Shown in pieces: positions 16,835 through 23,966 of a stretch of DNA of 64,000 nucleotides. The notes under the pieces are model-generated. The model saw nothing but the letters and a program-made list of their open reading frames with translations, had not been told where the DNA came from and did not search any database. Origin of the DNA: Cenarchaeum symbiosum A. Its GTDB lineage: Archaea; Thermoproteota; Nitrososphaeria; Nitrososphaerales; Nitrosopumilaceae. Numbering within the stretch: position 1 is the stretch's first letter; each line of letters begins with the position of its first letter. The stretch spans positions 1,722,849 through 1,786,848 of the forward strand of contig DP000238.1 in NCBI GenBank assembly GCA_000200715.1, given 5' to 3'. Both the position numbers and the translations under genes were made by a program.

Positions 16835-16942
16835 GAAAAACGGAATGTGGGACTGTTTTTAACAGTTTCCGGTTCTATATGGGAAGACGGCCAGGATGGC
16901 AGCCGATAAGACATAATAAGGGAGCGCCCCCCGACAGTGTCC

Positions 16943-18022
16943 ATGAAGGCTGTAGTCTACGAGGAGTATGCACCGGATGATGATTACAAAAAGATACTCC
17001 GCGTAAAGGACATCGACGAGCCCAAGCCCCGGGCCGACGAGGTGATCTTTACCGTCAAGGCGGCAGCTTTAAACTACAACGACATCTGGGGGATGCGCGG
17101 CCAGCCTGTCCCGGTCCCGCTGCCGCACGTCTCGGGCTCTGACGCGGCAGGCGACGTGACCGCGGTGGGCGAGGACGTCAAGGACATAAAGATAGGCGAC
17201 AGGGTCGTCTCGCACTCCAACATGTCGTGCAGGATATGCAGCGCCTGCACAGACGGCAGGGAGTTTGACTGCATCAAGAGGACCATCTGGGGCTTCCAGA
17301 CGGGCCCGAACTGGGGCGCCTTTCAAGAGTCCACGCACCTGCCCGAGGTCAACGTATCGAGGATACCGGAGGGCGTAAGCTACGAGCACGCGGCGGCCGC
17401 ATCAATGACCATACTGACGTCCTGGCACATGCTAGTCGGCAGGGCAAGGATCAGGCCGGGCCAGACCGTGCTGATAATGGGCGGCGGCTCGGGCGTGGGG
17501 AGCTTTGGCATACAGATAGCAAAACTGTACAACTGCGACGTGATAGCCACCGCCAGCCCCGACAAGCTCGACAAGTGCAAGGAGCTGGGGGCGGACTATG
17601 CGGTGGACCACCGCAAGGAGGACTGGCACAAGGAGGTCCGGGCGATAACCAAGGAGATAGCCAAGAGAAAGGGCGAGGCGCCGGGCATAGACGTCTCGTT
17701 CGACCACATAGGGCAGACCCACTGGAACAAGCAGCTCACCCTGCTGAAATACGGCGCGACGCTCGTCTCATGCGGGGCCACCACAGGATACGACGCAAAG
17801 ACCGACCTGCGCCACATATTCTTCAAGGGGACAAACATACTCGGTTCCACCCAGGGCACCAAGGCGGAGCTCGACCAGGCGCTCTACTGGATGGGGCAGG
17901 GCAAGATCAAGGCTGCGATAGACTCGACATACTCCTTCGGCCAGGCGGCCGAGGCGCACGCCAAGATGCTCTCCGGCAAGGGCCTCTTTGGCAAGATACT
18001 GATGAAGCCCGAAGGCGCCTGA
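16943..18022 (+). CDS. Zinc-type alcohol dehydrogenase / quinone-reductase family (MDR) oxidoreductase
   Basis: An MDR-superfamily enzyme of about 359 residues, starting at ATG 16943 with a GTG two codons earlier as the alternative. The N-terminal GroES-like domain carries AALNYNDIWGMRG and a structural-zinc loop CRICSACTDGREFDC. The Rossmann domain has the NAD(P) motif IMGGGSGVGSFGIQIAK. The layout resembles crotonyl/acryloyl-CoA reductases and related MDR enzymes. With the downstream CitE-like gene it could serve acyl-CoA metabolism, for instance near the 3-hydroxypropionate/4-hydroxybutyrate cycle of Thaumarchaeota, but that is inference. Confidence 0.85.
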   Translation: MKAVVYEEYAPDDDYKKILRVKDIDEPKPRADEVIFTVKAAALNYNDIWGMRGQPVPVPLPHVSGSDAAGDVTAVGEDVKDIKIGDRVVSHSNMSCRICSACTDGREFDCIKRTIWGFQTGPNWGAFQESTHLPEVNVSRIPEGVSYEHAAAASMTILTSWHMLVGRARIRPGQTVLIMGGGSGVGSFGIQIAKLYNCDVIATASPDKLDKCKELGADYAVDHRKEDWHKEVRAITKEIAKRKGEAPGIDVSFDHIGQTHWNKQLTLLKYGATLVSCGATTGYDAKTDLRHIFFKGTNILGSTQGTKAELDQALYWMGQGKIKAAIDSTYSFGQAAEAHAKMLSGKGLFGKILMKPEGA

Positions 18023-18028
18023 GCGCAG

Positions 18029-18895
18029 ATGGCCCAGATATTTCGCAGCCTCATATTTGTGCCAGGCAACAATGCAAAGTTTCTGGAAAATGCCAAGACA
18101 CTGCCCGCGGACATAGTATGCCTGGACCTTGAGGATTCTGTGCCCGGGCCCGAAAAGGACCAGGCCCGCAAGATGGTCGGCGGTGCAGTCACCAAGAGGG
18201 GCTTTGGCGCGTCCGTCTTTGTGAGGATAAACCCGTCGACGACGAGCGTCGCTGATGAGGACCTGCGGGAGATCACGCGGGAGGGGCTTGCCGGCGTGGT
18301 TGTCCCCAAGGTGGACCGGCCGGAGGACCTCAAGAGAATCGAGGTGCTCCTCGAGGGCCTGGAACGGGAGAGGGGCCTTGCACGCACGGACATCATACCA
18401 TCGATAGAGTCGCCCGGGGGCGTTCGCAACTGCTATGAGATAGCGTCGTATTCCGAGCGCATACCGGCTGTCGTATTTGGCATATTCGACCTGCTTCATA
18501 ACATGGGCATAGAGTACACAAAGAAGGGCAGGGGCGCCATGCACGCGCGGGCCCGGGTCGCCCTAGACGCTGCAGCAGCAAGGGTGGTGGCCATCGACGG
18601 GATCTGGCAGGACACAAAGGATGATGAGGGCCTGCGGGAGGACTGCCGGAGGGGCAGGTCCCTTGGCTACAAGGGCAAGAGCGTGATCCACCCGTCGCAG
18701 ATAGATACAGTGCATGAAGAGTTCAAGCCCAATGCGGCCGAGATTGAATGGTCCAAGAGGGTCTGCGGGGCATACCTCGAATCGATGAAAAAGGGCAGGG
18801 GCGCCACCACCCTGGACGGCCTGATGATAGACGAGGTGCACTACAAGCGCGCCGACGCCCTCCTCAAGGCGGCAGGCGAGCCCGCAGAGGGCTGA
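18029..18895 (+). CDS. HpcH/HpaI aldolase / citrate lyase beta-subunit (CitE-like) protein
   Basis: The 288-residue TIM-barrel protein has the CitE/malyl-CoA lyase motifs: RSLIFVPGNNAKFLENA, DIVCLDLEDSVPGPEK, VFVRINP, GVVVPKVDRPED, IIPSIESPGGVRN and KGKSVIHPSQID. Acidic metal ligands are E and D in LEDSVP and IES. The family cleaves or forms C-C bonds in (3S)-malyl-, citramalyl- or citryl-CoA. It lies 6 bp after the MDR reductase and is probably co-transcribed. The substrate cannot be read from sequence. Confidence 0.88.
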   Translation: MAQIFRSLIFVPGNNAKFLENAKTLPADIVCLDLEDSVPGPEKDQARKMVGGAVTKRGFGASVFVRINPSTTSVADEDLREITREGLAGVVVPKVDRPEDLKRIEVLLEGLERERGLARTDIIPSIESPGGVRNCYEIASYSERIPAVVFGIFDLLHNMGIEYTKKGRGAMHARARVALDAAAARVVAIDGIWQDTKDDEGLREDCRRGRSLGYKGKSVIHPSQIDTVHEEFKPNAAEIEWSKRVCGAYLESMKKGRGATTLDGLMIDEVHYKRADALLKAAGEPAEG

Positions 18896-18951: not shown

Positions 18952-19659
18952 ATGATAGACCTGACTGACCCCGTGGCCACCATCACACGGCTGTTTGAGG
19001 GGGAGAAATACAGCGAGATCATAAGGTACTGCAGGCTCATGCTCGAAAAGGACCCCCGGGACATGACCGGCCTGCAGAACCTTGCGATGGCCCACATCCG
19101 GCTAGACGAGTATCAAGACGCGCTGGATGCATGCGAGAAGGTGCTCGGGATTGATAGCTCCGATGAATACGCGCTAAAAAACAAGGTGCTCGCGCTTGAG
19201 GGCCTGCGGCGCTTTGACGAGATACCAGGGTTCTGCGAGAAGCTGCTGTCCATGGACGCCAAGGATGTCTGGGCACTCAACAGCATGGGAATGGCGCTCG
19301 GCCAGCTGGGAAAAGACGAGGAGTCGGCTGTATTTTACGACAGGGCGCTTGCCGAGGAGCCGAAAAATGTAACCTCGCTGATGAACAAGGCGCTCGCAAT
19401 GTACCGCATGAACTATTTCGATGAATCCGCGGATCTATACGACAGGGTGCAGCAGGCCGATCCCGCGATAAAGGCCGCAGCAGCCGCAAAGTCCGATGCA
19501 TACTCGAGATCGGGCAGAAAAGACGAGGCGTTCCTGGCAGCCCAGGGCCTCCTGGCAGAAGAGATGAAGGGGATCATCTCAAGGGCCGCAGAAAACAAGT
19601 GCACAGTCTTCCACCAGTTCTGCCAGGACGAGTTTGACGAAAAGGAAAAGGGCCGGTAG
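18952..19659 (+). CDS. Tetratricopeptide-repeat protein
   Basis: A 235-residue all-helical protein with about five TPR units (YSEIIRYCRLMLEKDP, LDACEKVLGIDSSDEYAL, ALNSMGMALGQLGKDEESAVFYDRAL, ALAMYRMNYFDESADLYDRVQ). It has no signal peptide, so it is a cytosolic scaffold or protein-interaction module. Its end lies 4 bp before the riboflavin synthase ATG, so it may head the riboflavin transcript, but a functional link to riboflavin is not implied. Confidence 0.85.
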   Translation: MIDLTDPVATITRLFEGEKYSEIIRYCRLMLEKDPRDMTGLQNLAMAHIRLDEYQDALDACEKVLGIDSSDEYALKNKVLALEGLRRFDEIPGFCEKLLSMDAKDVWALNSMGMALGQLGKDEESAVFYDRALAEEPKNVTSLMNKALAMYRMNYFDESADLYDRVQQADPAIKAAAAAKSDAYSRSGRKDEAFLAAQGLLAEEMKGIISRAAENKCTVFHQFCQDEFDEKEKGR

Positions 19660-19663
19660 CGGC

Positions 19664-20251
19664 ATGTTCACCGGGATAATAGAGGGGACCGGCAGGGTCG
19701 CGGGTGTGGCCAGGCCGGCGCGCCGCAGCGCGCTGAGGATGACCGTCGATCTTGGGCCCTACGCAAAGGGGCTAAAGCAGGGCCAGAGCGTGGCGCTCAA
19801 CGGCGTCTGCCTGACGGTAACGGAGAGGACGGGCGTAAAATGCCACTTTGAGATAATAGACGAGACTGCCAGGAGGACCGACCTTGGGAGCCTCCGGAGG
19901 GGCAGCATAGTCAACATAGAGAGGAGCCTCCGGGCCGGGGGCAGCCTCGACGGCCACTTTGTCCTCGGGCACATAGACGGGGTAGGCACGATAAGGTCGA
20001 TCCAGGAGAAAAAGGGCGAGATAGTCATGCAGGTAGAGATACCCTCCCCCCTTGCAAAACAGGTGGTCGAGAAGGGATCTATCGCCATAGACGGGATCAG
20101 CCTGACCGTGACGAAAATACGGAAAAACCGCGTGACCATCTCGCTGATCCCGCATACCATCGAGATGACCAATCTTGGGTCCAGGCATACAGGCGACAGG
20201 GTGAACATAGAGACCGACATACTCGCGAAATACGCGGCGCGAAAACCCTGA
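19664..20251 (+). CDS. ribE: Riboflavin synthase alpha chain (bacterial type)
   Basis: The 195-residue protein starts MFTGIIEGTG, the invariant N-terminus of the family; the longer frame upstream is discarded. Two lumazine-binding repeats are visible: GQSVALNGVCLTVT and SLDGHFVLGHIDGVG in the first, KGSIAIDGISLTVTKI and HTIEMTNLG in the second. The enzyme dismutates two 6,7-dimethyl-8-ribityllumazines to riboflavin. Many archaea instead use a lumazine-synthase-like archaeal RibC, so this bacterial/eukaryotic type is notable. It opens the riboflavin cluster. Confidence 0.95.
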   Translation: MFTGIIEGTGRVAGVARPARRSALRMTVDLGPYAKGLKQGQSVALNGVCLTVTERTGVKCHFEIIDETARRTDLGSLRRGSIVNIERSLRAGGSLDGHFVLGHIDGVGTIRSIQEKKGEIVMQVEIPSPLAKQVVEKGSIAIDGISLTVTKIRKNRVTISLIPHTIEMTNLGSRHTGDRVNIETDILAKYAARKP

Positions 20252-20273
20252 CAACTATACTTGTAATAACAAT

Positions 20274-20295
20274 TTTACTAGTAAACTTTATAATC
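20274..20295 (+). promoter_or_regulatory. Promoter with 12-bp palindrome upstream of ribB
   Basis: The 56-bp gap before ribB is AT-rich. It contains a TATA-like ctttataatc at 20286-20295, about 20 bp before the ATG, immediately preceded by the perfect palindrome TTTACTAGTAAA (20274-20285). This suggests a second promoter within the riboflavin cluster with an operator, possibly for an RbkR-type riboflavin regulator. Confidence 0.55.
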
Positions 20296-20307
20296 AGAAA
20301 CGGAGAC

Positions 20308-20982
20308 ATGCCCGGCATGCCCCTCGAGGTTGCCATTGAATCTCTAAAGAGGGGCGAGTTTGTTCTTGTGCATGATTCAGAGGGCCGCGAGAATGAAGTG
20401 GACATGGTGGCTGCAGCAGGGCTGGTGACGCCCGAGCATATAGCACGGATGCGCCTGCACGGCGGCGGGCTGATCTGCCTTGCGATAGGCCCCGGCCTTG
20501 CGTCGGCGCTCGGCCTGAGGTACATGCACGAGATGCTGTCAGAATCGCCCGGCTTTCCCAGGGGGATGATAATGGGACTTGCCCCGTACGGGGACCGGTC
20601 CACGTTCTCGATAACGGTCAACCATCACAGGACGTACACGGGTGTGACCGACCGGGACAGGGCGCTGACCATCTCGGAGATGGCCGGGTTGCACGGCGCG
20701 GCAGATCCCCGGGCGGAGTTTGTCTCGTCATTCAGGACGCCGGGGCACGTCCCCCTGTTGATGGCGTCAGGCGGCCTGCTCGAGGAGAGGCGGGGCCACA
20801 CGGAGATGTCGGTATACCTTGCGGGGGCGGCGGGGCTCGCGCCGGCGGCGGCAATCTGCGAGATGATGGATGCCGAGACCTACACCGCGCTGTCCGCGGA
20901 TAAGGCGCGCAGGTACGCGCAGGACAACGGCATTCCCTTTGTCGACGGCAGGGAGCTCATAGAGTACGCGGGGGTGCGCTGA
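20308..20982 (+). CDS. ribB: 3,4-dihydroxy-2-butanone 4-phosphate synthase
   Basis: The 224-residue protein shows RibB motifs: the metal/substrate-binding HDSEGRENEVDMV, HGGGLICLA, the HRTYTGVTDRDRALTI segment, FRTPGHVPLL and RRGHTEMSVYLAGAAGL ending in ICEMMD. It makes the four-carbon unit for lumazine from ribulose 5-phosphate. It is monofunctional, with no GTP cyclohydrolase II fused. The ribH frame follows immediately after its TGA. Confidence 0.95.
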   Translation: MPGMPLEVAIESLKRGEFVLVHDSEGRENEVDMVAAAGLVTPEHIARMRLHGGGLICLAIGPGLASALGLRYMHEMLSESPGFPRGMIMGLAPYGDRSTFSITVNHHRTYTGVTDRDRALTISEMAGLHGAADPRAEFVSSFRTPGHVPLLMASGGLLEERRGHTEMSVYLAGAAGLAPAAAICEMMDAETYTALSADKARRYAQDNGIPFVDGRELIEYAGVR

Positions 20983-21408
20983 CTGAACATAGCGATAGTG
21001 GCGTCAGAGTTCAACGGCGAGGTGACCTCCCGCATGTTAGAGGTGGCCCGGGAGAAGGCCGGAACGCTCCAGCTGGAGATCCGGCATACATCGCGCGTCC
21101 CCGGCGCATTTGACATGCCGGTGATAGTCGACGCGCTGTTAAGGAGGGAGGATATCGACGGGGTCGTCACGCTTGGCGCGATAATCAAGGGCCGCACAAA
21201 GCATGACGAGCTGATAGCAAGGACCACGGCGAGATCCCTCTCTGATCTGTCCGTGCGGCACCAAAAGCCCGTCTCCCTGGGCATAAGCGGGCCCGGGATG
21301 CACGAGAGGCAGGCGCACGCAAGAATCAGGCCCGTGGCGGAGAGGGCAGTCGAGGCGGTGCTCTCCGTATATGACGAGCTCAAGAGGATCAGCCGGCCGT
21401 GCAGCTGA
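20983..21408 (+). CDS. ribH: 6,7-dimethyl-8-ribityllumazine synthase, likely CTG start
   Basis: Lumazine synthase motifs are clear: NIAIVASEFN (first strand), HTSRVPGAFDMPVIVDALL, GAIIKGRTKHDELIA with the catalytic-type histidine, and PVSLGISGP...QAHAR. The first strand begins directly after the ribB TGA, and the only upstream codon available is CTG at 20983. The next standard start, GTG 20998, would remove LNIAI. I therefore place the start at CTG, making about 141 residues. It condenses the RibB product with the pyrimidine intermediate. Its stop is overlapped by the next gene. Confidence 0.88.
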   Translation: MNIAIVASEFNGEVTSRMLEVAREKAGTLQLEIRHTSRVPGAFDMPVIVDALLRREDIDGVVTLGAIIKGRTKHDELIARTTARSLSDLSVRHQKPVSLGISGPGMHERQAHARIRPVAERAVEAVLSVYDELKRISRPCS

Positions 21409-22130
21409 CCGTAATCCGGATAACAGGCTACGGGCCCTGGACGCTGACTCTTGGCAGCGACAGGGAGCACGAGCTGCAGATACTCCAGGCGTCCCTTTAT
21501 GCGGACCTGCAAAAGCTATTCTCGGAGAGGGGCTGCCTCGTCTTTCCAAACAGGCATGACGAGCTGTTTGCAGTGACCAGCGGGCTGGATGCGCAGGGGC
21601 ACGCCGAGATACTGCAAAAGATCTCGGTGCGGGGCCCCGGCCTCACCATGGCGATAGGGCGCGCAGAAGAGCCGCTGGACGCCGACATGATGGCCCACAA
21701 GGCAAGGGAGGCAGGCGAGCTGCTCGGGGACGGGATATTTGGCCGGCCCGGCGGGCAGGATGGCCCTGTAACTATAATGCACCTTGATGTCGATGATGTC
21801 AGCTCGCAGGCAAGATCCCGGTCGCCGTACGAGGTCTCGTCGGCAATGTTCGGGCTGTACGCCCGGATGTCCTCGTTCTTTGTCGGGCACGGGGCGCTCA
21901 CGTTCTTTATGGGCGGGGACAACTTTATGGTCGTCTCGGGGCCCCGGGCCAAAGGGGCGGTGCGGGGCTTTCTCGACGAGATGAACGGCACGGGCGTTAT
22001 ACTCAACTGCGGTATAGGGACGGGGGGCAGCGCCAGGGAGGCTGCCTGCCGTGCCACGGGGGCGCTCGACAAGATCCGCGAGATCAGGGATTCGGGTGGG
22101 AAGAAGCCGCAGGTATACGAGCTGCCATGA
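21399..22130 (+). CDS. arfA: GTP cyclohydrolase III (archaeal, first riboflavin step)
   Basis: The 243-residue protein starts with GTG inside the ribH end. Family motifs are MQLTVIRITGYGPWT, a duplicated ferredoxin-like/nucleotidyl-cyclase fold with LVFPNRHDELFAVTSG in the first half and MGGDNFMVVSG plus CGIGTGGSAREAACRATGALD in the second. GTP cyclohydrolase III opens GTP to the formylated pyrimidine FAPy, as in Methanocaldococcus. The stop overlaps the amidohydrolase start by 4 bp (ATGA), so the two are translationally coupled. Confidence 0.92.
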   Translation: MQLTVIRITGYGPWTLTLGSDREHELQILQASLYADLQKLFSERGCLVFPNRHDELFAVTSGLDAQGHAEILQKISVRGPGLTMAIGRAEEPLDADMMAHKAREAGELLGDGIFGRPGGQDGPVTIMHLDVDDVSSQARSRSPYEVSSAMFGLYARMSSFFVGHGALTFFMGGDNFMVVSGPRAKGAVRGFLDEMNGTGVILNCGIGTGGSAREAACRATGALDKIREIRDSGGKKPQVYELP

Positions 22131-23305
22131 TACTGCGAAATGTGGGCGCCCTTGTCGGCGGGGATCTCGAGTATGTCCAGTCGACTGACATACGTATAAC
22201 CCGGGGGCGGTTTGGCGCGGTGCGCCCGGGGCAGGCGGGCCCCGGGGCTGCCGACTGCGAGGGGCTGCTTGCAATGCCAGGGCTGGTAAACGCGCACACG
22301 CACATAGGCGATTCAATAGCAAAGGATGCGGCGCCCCGCGGCACCGTAGATGACAAGATACACCCCGTACACGGCGCCAAGGCGAGGATACTGTCCCGCA
22401 CGCGGCCCGAACACCTGGCTGCATTCATGCGGAACTCGTGCATCTCAATGATCAGGGGGGGCACCACGGCGTTTGCCGATTTCAGGGAGGGCGGGCCCGC
22501 GGGGATCGCGCTTGCAAAGCGGGCCCTTGCGGGGCTCCCGATACGGCGCCGCATCCTGGGCAGGGCGGGCCTGTACCAGGACTGGGGGCAGATCGGGCGC
22601 GACGAGGGGTTCCCGCGGGGCAGGAGGGCCGAGCTCGACAGGGTGCTCCGGGAATGCGACGGGCTGGGCATCAGCGGCGCCAACGAGAACAGCGATTCTG
22701 TGCTCCGGTCCTACTCCCGGACAAAAAAGCTCAGGGCAATACACTCGTCGGAGACGGAGCAGAGCATTGCCGCATCGAGGGCGCACACAAAGAGGTCAGA
22801 GGCGGCCCGTGCCCTGCAGCTCCGGCCGCACTTTATGGTTCACATGACGCATGCGTCGCGGGCCGACTTGCGCGCTGTGGCGCGGTCCTGCGGGATAGTG
22901 GTATGCCCCCGCGCAAATGCGGCGCTAGCCGAGGGGATCCCCGACATACACATGATGCTAAAGGAGGGCTGCCGCGTGGCGATCGGCACGGACAATGTGA
23001 TGGTAAACCCGCCGGACATGTTCCGCGAGATGGACTATTTGTGGAAGGTCACCATGGCTGTGCACAAAAAGCGGATCGACCCGCGCGAGATACTCCAGAT
23101 GGCCACCGTCAACGGGGGGAGCATGCTGGGGCTGGGGGCGGGCCCTATAGAAGCGGGCATGCTGGCCGACTGCATCCTCATTGAAAAGCACTCGATAGAC
23201 CTTGAGCCTCTGCACGACCCGCATGCCGCGATAGTGCACAGGGCGTCGGCAGGATCGGTAAGGGCGGTGATCATAGGCGGCAGGATAGCACATGGCAGGA
23301 TCTAG
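22127..23305 (+). CDS. Amidohydrolase-superfamily protein (cytosine deaminase / TrzN-like) in the riboflavin cluster
   Basis: A 392-residue metal-dependent hydrolase. The N-terminal NAHTHIGDS gives the HxH metal ligands (H57, H59), a later histidine lies in IHSSETEQS, another in MVHMTHASRADL and the acidic residue in IGTDNVMVNPP. This set is that of adenosine/cytosine-type deaminases and s-triazine hydrolases (subtype III). It is coupled to GTP cyclohydrolase III and overlaps arfC, so it is tightly tied to riboflavin synthesis. It may perform the deamination or deformylation between those two steps. Substrate unproven. Confidence 0.88.
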   Translation: MILRNVGALVGGDLEYVQSTDIRITRGRFGAVRPGQAGPGAADCEGLLAMPGLVNAHTHIGDSIAKDAAPRGTVDDKIHPVHGAKARILSRTRPEHLAAFMRNSCISMIRGGTTAFADFREGGPAGIALAKRALAGLPIRRRILGRAGLYQDWGQIGRDEGFPRGRRAELDRVLRECDGLGISGANENSDSVLRSYSRTKKLRAIHSSETEQSIAASRAHTKRSEAARALQLRPHFMVHMTHASRADLRAVARSCGIVVCPRANAALAEGIPDIHMMLKEGCRVAIGTDNVMVNPPDMFREMDYLWKVTMAVHKKRIDPREILQMATVNGGSMLGLGAGPIEAGMLADCILIEKHSIDLEPLHDPHAAIVHRASAGSVRAVIIGGRIAHGRI

Positions 23306-23966
23306 GGCCCGGGTGATCCTGGGCGCTGCGGCCAGCGTAGACGGGAGAATCGCCACGCGCACGGGGGACTCGGGGATCTCGTCTGCGCGAGACCTGCGGC
23401 GCGTCCACAGGCTGCGTTCGGAGGTCGACGGCATAATGGTGGGCAGGGGAACGGTCGTATCCGACGACCCGCTGCTGACGGCAAGGCACAGGGGGGGCAG
23501 GAATCCCGTGCGGATTATAATCGACCCGCTGGGGAGGCTGCCCCCGGAATCCCAGATAGCCAGGACCGCGGGGAGGATCCCGACTATAGTGGCATGTACG
23601 GGCAGGATCCCCCCCCGGAACCGACGCAGGCTCGAGGGGTTGTCAGTGGAGGTGCTCGAGGCGGGTACAGATGAGATGGACCTTTTGGTGCTTCTGCGCG
23701 CCCTTTACCGGCGGGGACTGCGGACTATATTGCTCGAGGGCGGCGCGCGCACAAACTGGGGGTTCATCGAGCGGGGGCTTGTCGACGAGATGATAATCAC
23801 AATAGCGCCTGTGGTGATTGGGGGGACGGGATCGGTCCCGCTGGTGGGCGGCAGGGGGTTTGCAGGGGTGCACCGGCGGGCCTTTCGCCTGAAAGAAGCC
23901 TTGCGGCAGGGCGACGAGGTGGTCCTTCACTACGTGAAGAGGGCGCCCCGCCCGGCAAGGAATTAA
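23292..23966 (+). CDS. arfC: 2,5-diamino-6-ribosylamino-pyrimidinone 5'-phosphate reductase (RibD C-terminal/ArfC type)
   Basis: The 224-residue protein has the dihydrofolate-reductase-like RibD reductase fold: VILGAAASVDGRIATRTGDS, RLRSEVDGIMVGRGTVVSDDPLLTAR, NPVRIIIDPLGRLP, ILLEGGARTNWGFIERGLVDE and IAPVVIGGTG. Archaeal members reduce the ribosyl side chain using NADPH before deamination. It stands alone without the deaminase domain found in bacterial RibD. It overlaps the amidohydrolase by 14 bp and closes the riboflavin run. Confidence 0.93.
   Translation: MAGSRARVILGAAASVDGRIATRTGDSGISSARDLRRVHRLRSEVDGIMVGRGTVVSDDPLLTARHRGGRNPVRIIIDPLGRLPPESQIARTAGRIPTIVACTGRIPPRNRRRLEGLSVEVLEAGTDEMDLLVLLRALYRRGLRTILLEGGARTNWGFIERGLVDEMIITIAPVVIGGTGSVPLVGGRGFAGVHRRAFRLKEALRQGDEVVLHYVKRAPRPARN

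Follow-up and report, generated by a model that had tools for sequence, protein, structure and literature searches.

The window analyzed here is a 64,000-nucleotide stretch of the Cenarchaeum symbiosum A genome (assembly GCA_000200715.1, contig DP000238.1, positions 1,722,849 to 1,786,848), and the gene under study is the fifth gene of a riboflavin (rib) operon in it, encoding an amidohydrolase (AH) that we predict to be the missing pyrimidine deaminase of the pathway. The operon order is ribE-ribB-ribH-arfA-AH-arfC, spanning window positions 19661–23966:

22127..23305, + strand: AH, predicted 2,5-diamino-6-ribitylamino-4(3H)-pyrimidinone 5'-phosphate deaminase (amidohydrolase superfamily, 392 amino acids)
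21399..22130, + strand: arfA, GTP cyclohydrolase III (PF05165, 161 bits)
23292..23966, + strand: arfC, pyrimidine nucleotide reductase (RibD_C, PF01872, 165.9 bits)
20998..21408, + strand: ribH, lumazine synthase (PF00885, TIGR00114)
20308..20982, + strand: gene in the ribB position of the operon order (PF00926, TIGR00506)
19661..20251, + strand: ribE, bacterial-type riboflavin synthase alpha (two PF00677 domains; TIGR00187, 205 bits, cut-off 156.6)

The AH open reading frame starts with ATG, contains no internal stops and overlaps the genes on both sides. Direct inspection of the letters located the arfA/AH junction in an ATGA at 22127–22130 (4-nucleotide overlap), and the ATG of arfC lies at 23292, inside AH, whose TAG stop occupies 23303–23305 (14-nucleotide overlap). 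An earlier reading of the letters alone (the original prediction) had described AH as translationally coupled on both sides; the overlaps suggest such coupling to arfA and arfC. Pfam Amidohydro_1 covers residues 49–387 of the protein (140.4 bits). On arfA, the NCBIfam model for GTP cyclohydrolase IIa scored 143.9 bits, below its cut-off of 306, and the archaeal reductase model TIGR01508 scored 173.2 bits on arfC, slightly below its cut-off of 186. The arfC product consists of RibD_C only, without a deaminase domain, and TIGR00326 matched it over the reductase half alone.

An alignment of 65 sequences, in which the relatives are 22–57% identical to the window AH, was used to examine the active site. 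The metal ligands HxH, H and D (H57, H59, H206 and D289) were present in 65/65 sequences, and the intact metal ligands named in the original prediction are confirmed. The HxxE motif (H206-x-x-E209) and a second histidine, H239, were likewise invariant in all 65, as were D62, K85, E121, N264, G287 and N290; at a guess from their conservation, K85 and E121 could contact the substrate. TIM-barrel metal ligands, HxxE and the second histidine are among the marks of the mononuclear deaminases of the amidohydrolase superfamily, and AH, judged by its sequence, carries the full nucleobase-deaminase active site of this type. The AlphaFold model of AH (mean pLDDT, the predicted local distance difference test score, of 96) was nearest, among solved folds, to deaminases of the S-adenosylhomocysteine/methylthioadenosine (SAH/MTA) type, the isocytosine deaminase Vcz and guanine deaminases, with template modeling (TM) scores by query of ~0.78–0.86. 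The top NCBIfam model for AH was NF005552/PRK07213, 'chlorohydrolase' (276.6 bits; the cut-off of 294 was not reached). The other sampled Nitrosopumilaceae orthologues score above this cut-off, and NF005552 was the best NCBIfam match of every scanned relative linked to rib or cof genes.

Conservation of gene order was examined in a collection scan at one genome per species, for which alignment A3 was used, an 11-sequence alignment (A1) being too diverse. The scan gave 80 homologous loci. arfA was directly upstream of AH in 74/77 loci and arfC directly downstream in 75/79, and the loci span Nitrosopumilaceae, Nitrososphaeraceae, Nitrosocaldaceae, Bathyarchaeota and Asgard archaea; the order is thus kept in Thaumarchaeota, the group in which the original prediction would look for it, and well beyond. 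More distant Thermoproteota had other layouts: AH-arfC-cofH-cofG (L044, L045), arfC-AH beside cofH/cofG (L046, L049, L203), ribB-ribC-ribH-arfA-AH (L053, L054, L200, L202, L205) and arfC-arfA-ribB-ribC-ribH-AH with a creatininase gene opposite (cofH and cofG labels were assigned from sequence, without a profile search). Riboflavin supplies flavin mononucleotide and flavin adenine dinucleotide, and 5-amino-6-ribitylaminouracil, from which it is made, is a precursor of F420 too, the key methanogen cofactor; cofH and cofG make FO, on the F420 branch, from the same pathway intermediate. A conserved rib/arf operon in several lineages is the setting expected of a riboflavin pathway enzyme, and AH is found in one. 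Because both the protein and the gene order are conserved in many genomes, we regard chance as excluded for the AH reading frame and its placement.

Co-occurrence was scored in a sample of 200 Thermoproteota genomes, with a family membership threshold of at least 110 bits. ArfC was present in 55/56 genomes with the AH family, the sole genome without it (G007) being 76% complete, and 115/200 genomes lacked both. The sampled genomes are related, not independent, and Fisher p-values for the co-occurrence were not used as evidence. Weaker AH relatives were found in 20 further ArfC-positive genomes, several of them inside the family on the tree. Among Methanobacteriota, 141/152 genomes had an AH-family member above the NCBIfam cut-off, as expected because these organisms make F420, and among 14 control genomes only the four archaea matched the family at E <= 1e-30. 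In a maximum-likelihood tree of 74 rows, a split with 100/100 support set the AH family apart from seven paralogous amidohydrolases. The window AH grouped among Nitrosopumilaceae, and methanogen, Asgard and thaumarchaeal rows stood together, outside the paralogues, as expected of members of NF005552. Sulfolobales-like and Thermoproteales-like members formed a divergent branch, with which strict orthology is likely but less sure.

Searches of the C. symbiosum genome for another deaminase covered one contig of 2,045,086 bases. No RibD-type deaminase was found in it, the RibD model matching a reductase half only, which agrees with the absence that the original prediction set as a check. Above the cut-off, PF00383 matched one gene, which is ComEB/dCMP (deoxycytidine monophosphate)-deaminase-like and was rejected as the riboflavin deaminase. 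AH itself contains no cytidine-deaminase-fold domain (PF00383, or the first 140 positions of TIGR00326). In the 200-genome sample, every AH-family genome matched by the RibD model was matched over the reductase half only; weak matches to the deaminase half of TIGR00326 were seen in 11/200 genomes, none of them with the AH family. DUF447 (PF04289) was also considered as a replacement deaminase and was rejected: in some genomes it co-occurs with AH, and in G109 it adjoins it, a DUF447 gene (L045:6905-7549) lying directly upstream of AH in the AH-arfC-cofH-cofG cluster. A link of DUF447 to flavin or F420 metabolism is possible. Among the sampled Nitrosopumilaceae, DUF447 was matched in one genome only (G061), below the cut-off.

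The deformylation step that follows ArfA bears directly on what is left for AH to do. Two deformylases of the creatininase superfamily serve the riboflavin pathway: ArfB and, in bacteria, BrbF, which carries the annotation creatininase homologue (PMC9478397). A single creatininase-family gene occurs in the C. symbiosum genome and lies outside the window (L006:1447-2184; own genome, 27048-27677, minus strand); each of the sampled Nitrososphaerales genomes likewise has just one (31/31). The best model for the C. symbiosum gene was MftE (120.9 bits, under the cut-off), and the archaeal ArfB model gave 33 bits against a cut-off of 180. This gene of the ArfB/BrbF superfamily narrows the original prediction, and it is likely the thaumarchaeal deformylase. 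Creatininase genes also occur inside rib clusters in L046, L062, L063, L121 and L140; in L196 one lies on the opposite strand. In L062 (Bathyarchaeota JdFR-04), L063 (archaeon H03B2), and L121 and L140 (both Asgard archaea), ribH, ribC, arfA, AH and a creatininase-family gene are all together; arfC is also in the L062, L063 and L121 clusters, and ribB in all four except L062, a short contig. With a creatininase in these four clusters, only deamination and dephosphorylation are left there without an assigned gene.

From this evidence we predict, with considerable confidence, that AH is the deaminase of 2,5-diamino-6-ribitylamino-4(3H)-pyrimidinone 5'-phosphate in the common riboflavin/F420 pathway. 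ArfA would open GTP, the creatininase-family deformylase would remove formate, and ArfC would reduce the ribosyl side chain ahead of the AH step. AH would then hydrolyze the 2-amino group, giving 5-amino-6-ribitylaminouracil 5'-phosphate and ammonia, with a metal-bound hydroxide (H57, H59, H206, D289) as the probable nucleophile and E209 and H239 serving in acid/base catalysis and proton transfer. A separate phosphatase would next feed RibH or, in F420 producers, the FO synthase CofG/CofH. In PMC3403918, which cites work on M. jannaschii, the archaeal order is given as reduction by ArfC on the diamino compound before deamination; because reduction precedes deamination in archaea, the AH substrate would be the ribityl compound.

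Some observations weigh against this assignment. Nine of the 84 ArfC-positive Thermoproteota genomes (G052, G074, G080, G094, G115, G130, G131, G148 and G160) have no AH-family relative; therefore either another deaminase must exist there or these genomes lack parts of their sequence. AH does not adjoin recognizable rib or cof genes in five methanogen loci (L133, L154, L157, L158 and L171), and substrate specificity is not readable from sequence in a superfamily that switches substrate easily. As a separate observation, G080, G094 and G130 gave weak RibD-deaminase-like matches of 28–31 bits.

The original prediction had left room for either missing step, and its deaminase half is the one that stands. 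AH could instead be the deformylase of the ArfA product, 2-amino-5-formylamino-6-ribosylamino-4(3H)-pyrimidinone 5'-phosphate, in place of ArfB: it comes right after arfA, some amidohydrolases hydrolyze formyl or formimino groups, and the own creatininase is nearer to MftE than to the archaeal ArfB model. However, ArfB and BrbF already perform this step, every sampled Nitrososphaerales genome keeps its one creatininase, and in the clusters listed above such a gene accompanies AH. The HxxE motif and nearest folds of AH are of the deaminase type, the ArfB test on AH (NF033501, PF02633) returned Amidohydro_1 and no creatininase match, and deamination would be left without a gene. We set this function aside on account of the creatininase genes and consider it very improbable.

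A deaminase could also act earlier. If AH took the unreduced 2,5-diamino-6-ribosylamino-4(3H)-pyrimidinone 5'-phosphate, deamination would come before reduction, as with RibD; either compound could undergo this chemistry, and AH precedes arfC in the thaumarchaeal operon. However, the order of reactions cannot be read from that of the genes, which is reversed (arfC-AH) in L049 and L203, and the reduction-first report for archaeal ArfC (PMC3403918) also speaks against this reading; we hold it to be very unlikely, if marginally less so than deformylation. Much the same low probability attaches to a salvage or repair deaminase (for SAH/MTA, 5'-deoxyadenosine, guanine or isocytosine) that is in the operon for other reasons. 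The nearest solved structures are deaminases of just such substrates, and methanogen members are not beside rib genes, but in different classes and phyla AH has rib or cof genes as neighbors, ArfC accompanies the family in 55 of its 56 genomes, and the paralogues form a separate clade that splits off cleanly. We therefore retain deamination of the ribityl compound as the function of AH. Its extension to the whole clade, as an archaea-wide riboflavin/F420 pyrimidine deaminase (Nitrososphaeria, Thermoproteia, Bathyarchaeota, Asgard archaea and methanogens) that would be an independent invention of this step in the amidohydrolase fold and would close one of the two gene gaps left in the archaeal pathway, is probable, though held less firmly than the assignment of AH itself.

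The surroundings of the operon were also recorded. The ribE gene (19661–20251) is of the bacterial type in this Nitrososphaeria operon, whereas the Bathyarchaeota/Asgard clusters L062, L063 and L121 have the archaeal RibC between ribB and ribH; this is a swap of one enzyme inside the rib operon. A gene for a tetratricopeptide repeat (TPR) protein (18952–19659) stops 1 nucleotide before ribE, and many Nitrosopumilus loci have a TPR gene at the corresponding position. Farther upstream of the rib genes, at 16937–18895, lie two genes, one quinone-oxidoreductase-like and one for a CitE-like lyase, a pair also present upstream in L043, from another family of the same order.

No experimental assignment of an archaeal deaminase or phosphatase gene was found in the literature searched, in which sense the original prediction was right to call the deaminase unassigned; candidate genes are, however, credited to a 2017 paper. 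The review PMC8305020 lists three riboflavin gaps in Haloferax; for two of these it gives candidates that it attributes to Rodionova et al. 2017, one for ArfB and one being HVO_2483/MJ0699, while the phosphatase gap stays. In that table HVO_2483/MJ0699 stands between arfC and the phosphatase gap, which suggests that it is the deaminase candidate. Because the M. jannaschii and H. volcanii genomes each hold an AH-family member (E <= 1e-30), the 2017 prediction, as described in that review, may well concern the AH family, and the priority of the deaminase proposal is uncertain. A single gene family is indicated for the deaminase by operons of several phyla, and a clean enzymatic test is possible. 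If the assignment is true, the 'chlorohydrolase' database models could receive a new name, with effect on hundreds of archaeal genomes. The value of the finding, lowered by the probable earlier prediction, is that a long-open pathway step becomes directly testable.

Compared with known systems, AH is predicted to carry out the step equivalent to that of RibD in bacteria and Rib2 in fungi, beside the same reductase family, but the RibD/Rib2 deaminase has the cytidine-deaminase fold (PF00383) and AH the amidohydrolase fold; AH would thus stand in for the cytidine-deaminase-fold domain of those enzymes. The formamide hydrolases ArfB and BrbF belong to the same stretch of the pathway as AH, but have another fold, catalyze another step and are encoded by a separate gene. 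NF005552/PRK07213 is a generic family name and gives no pathway. The 2-amino group of a 2-amino-4-oxopyrimidine ring is what isocytosine and guanine deaminases cleave off, and we take it to be the very group that a riboflavin-pathway deaminase must attack. Vcz (7ww2, 8is4) and the guanine deaminases have the fold and metal-site type in common with AH, at an identity of ~15–21%; their substrates are free bases, whereas that predicted for AH is a phosphorylated ribitylaminopyrimidine.
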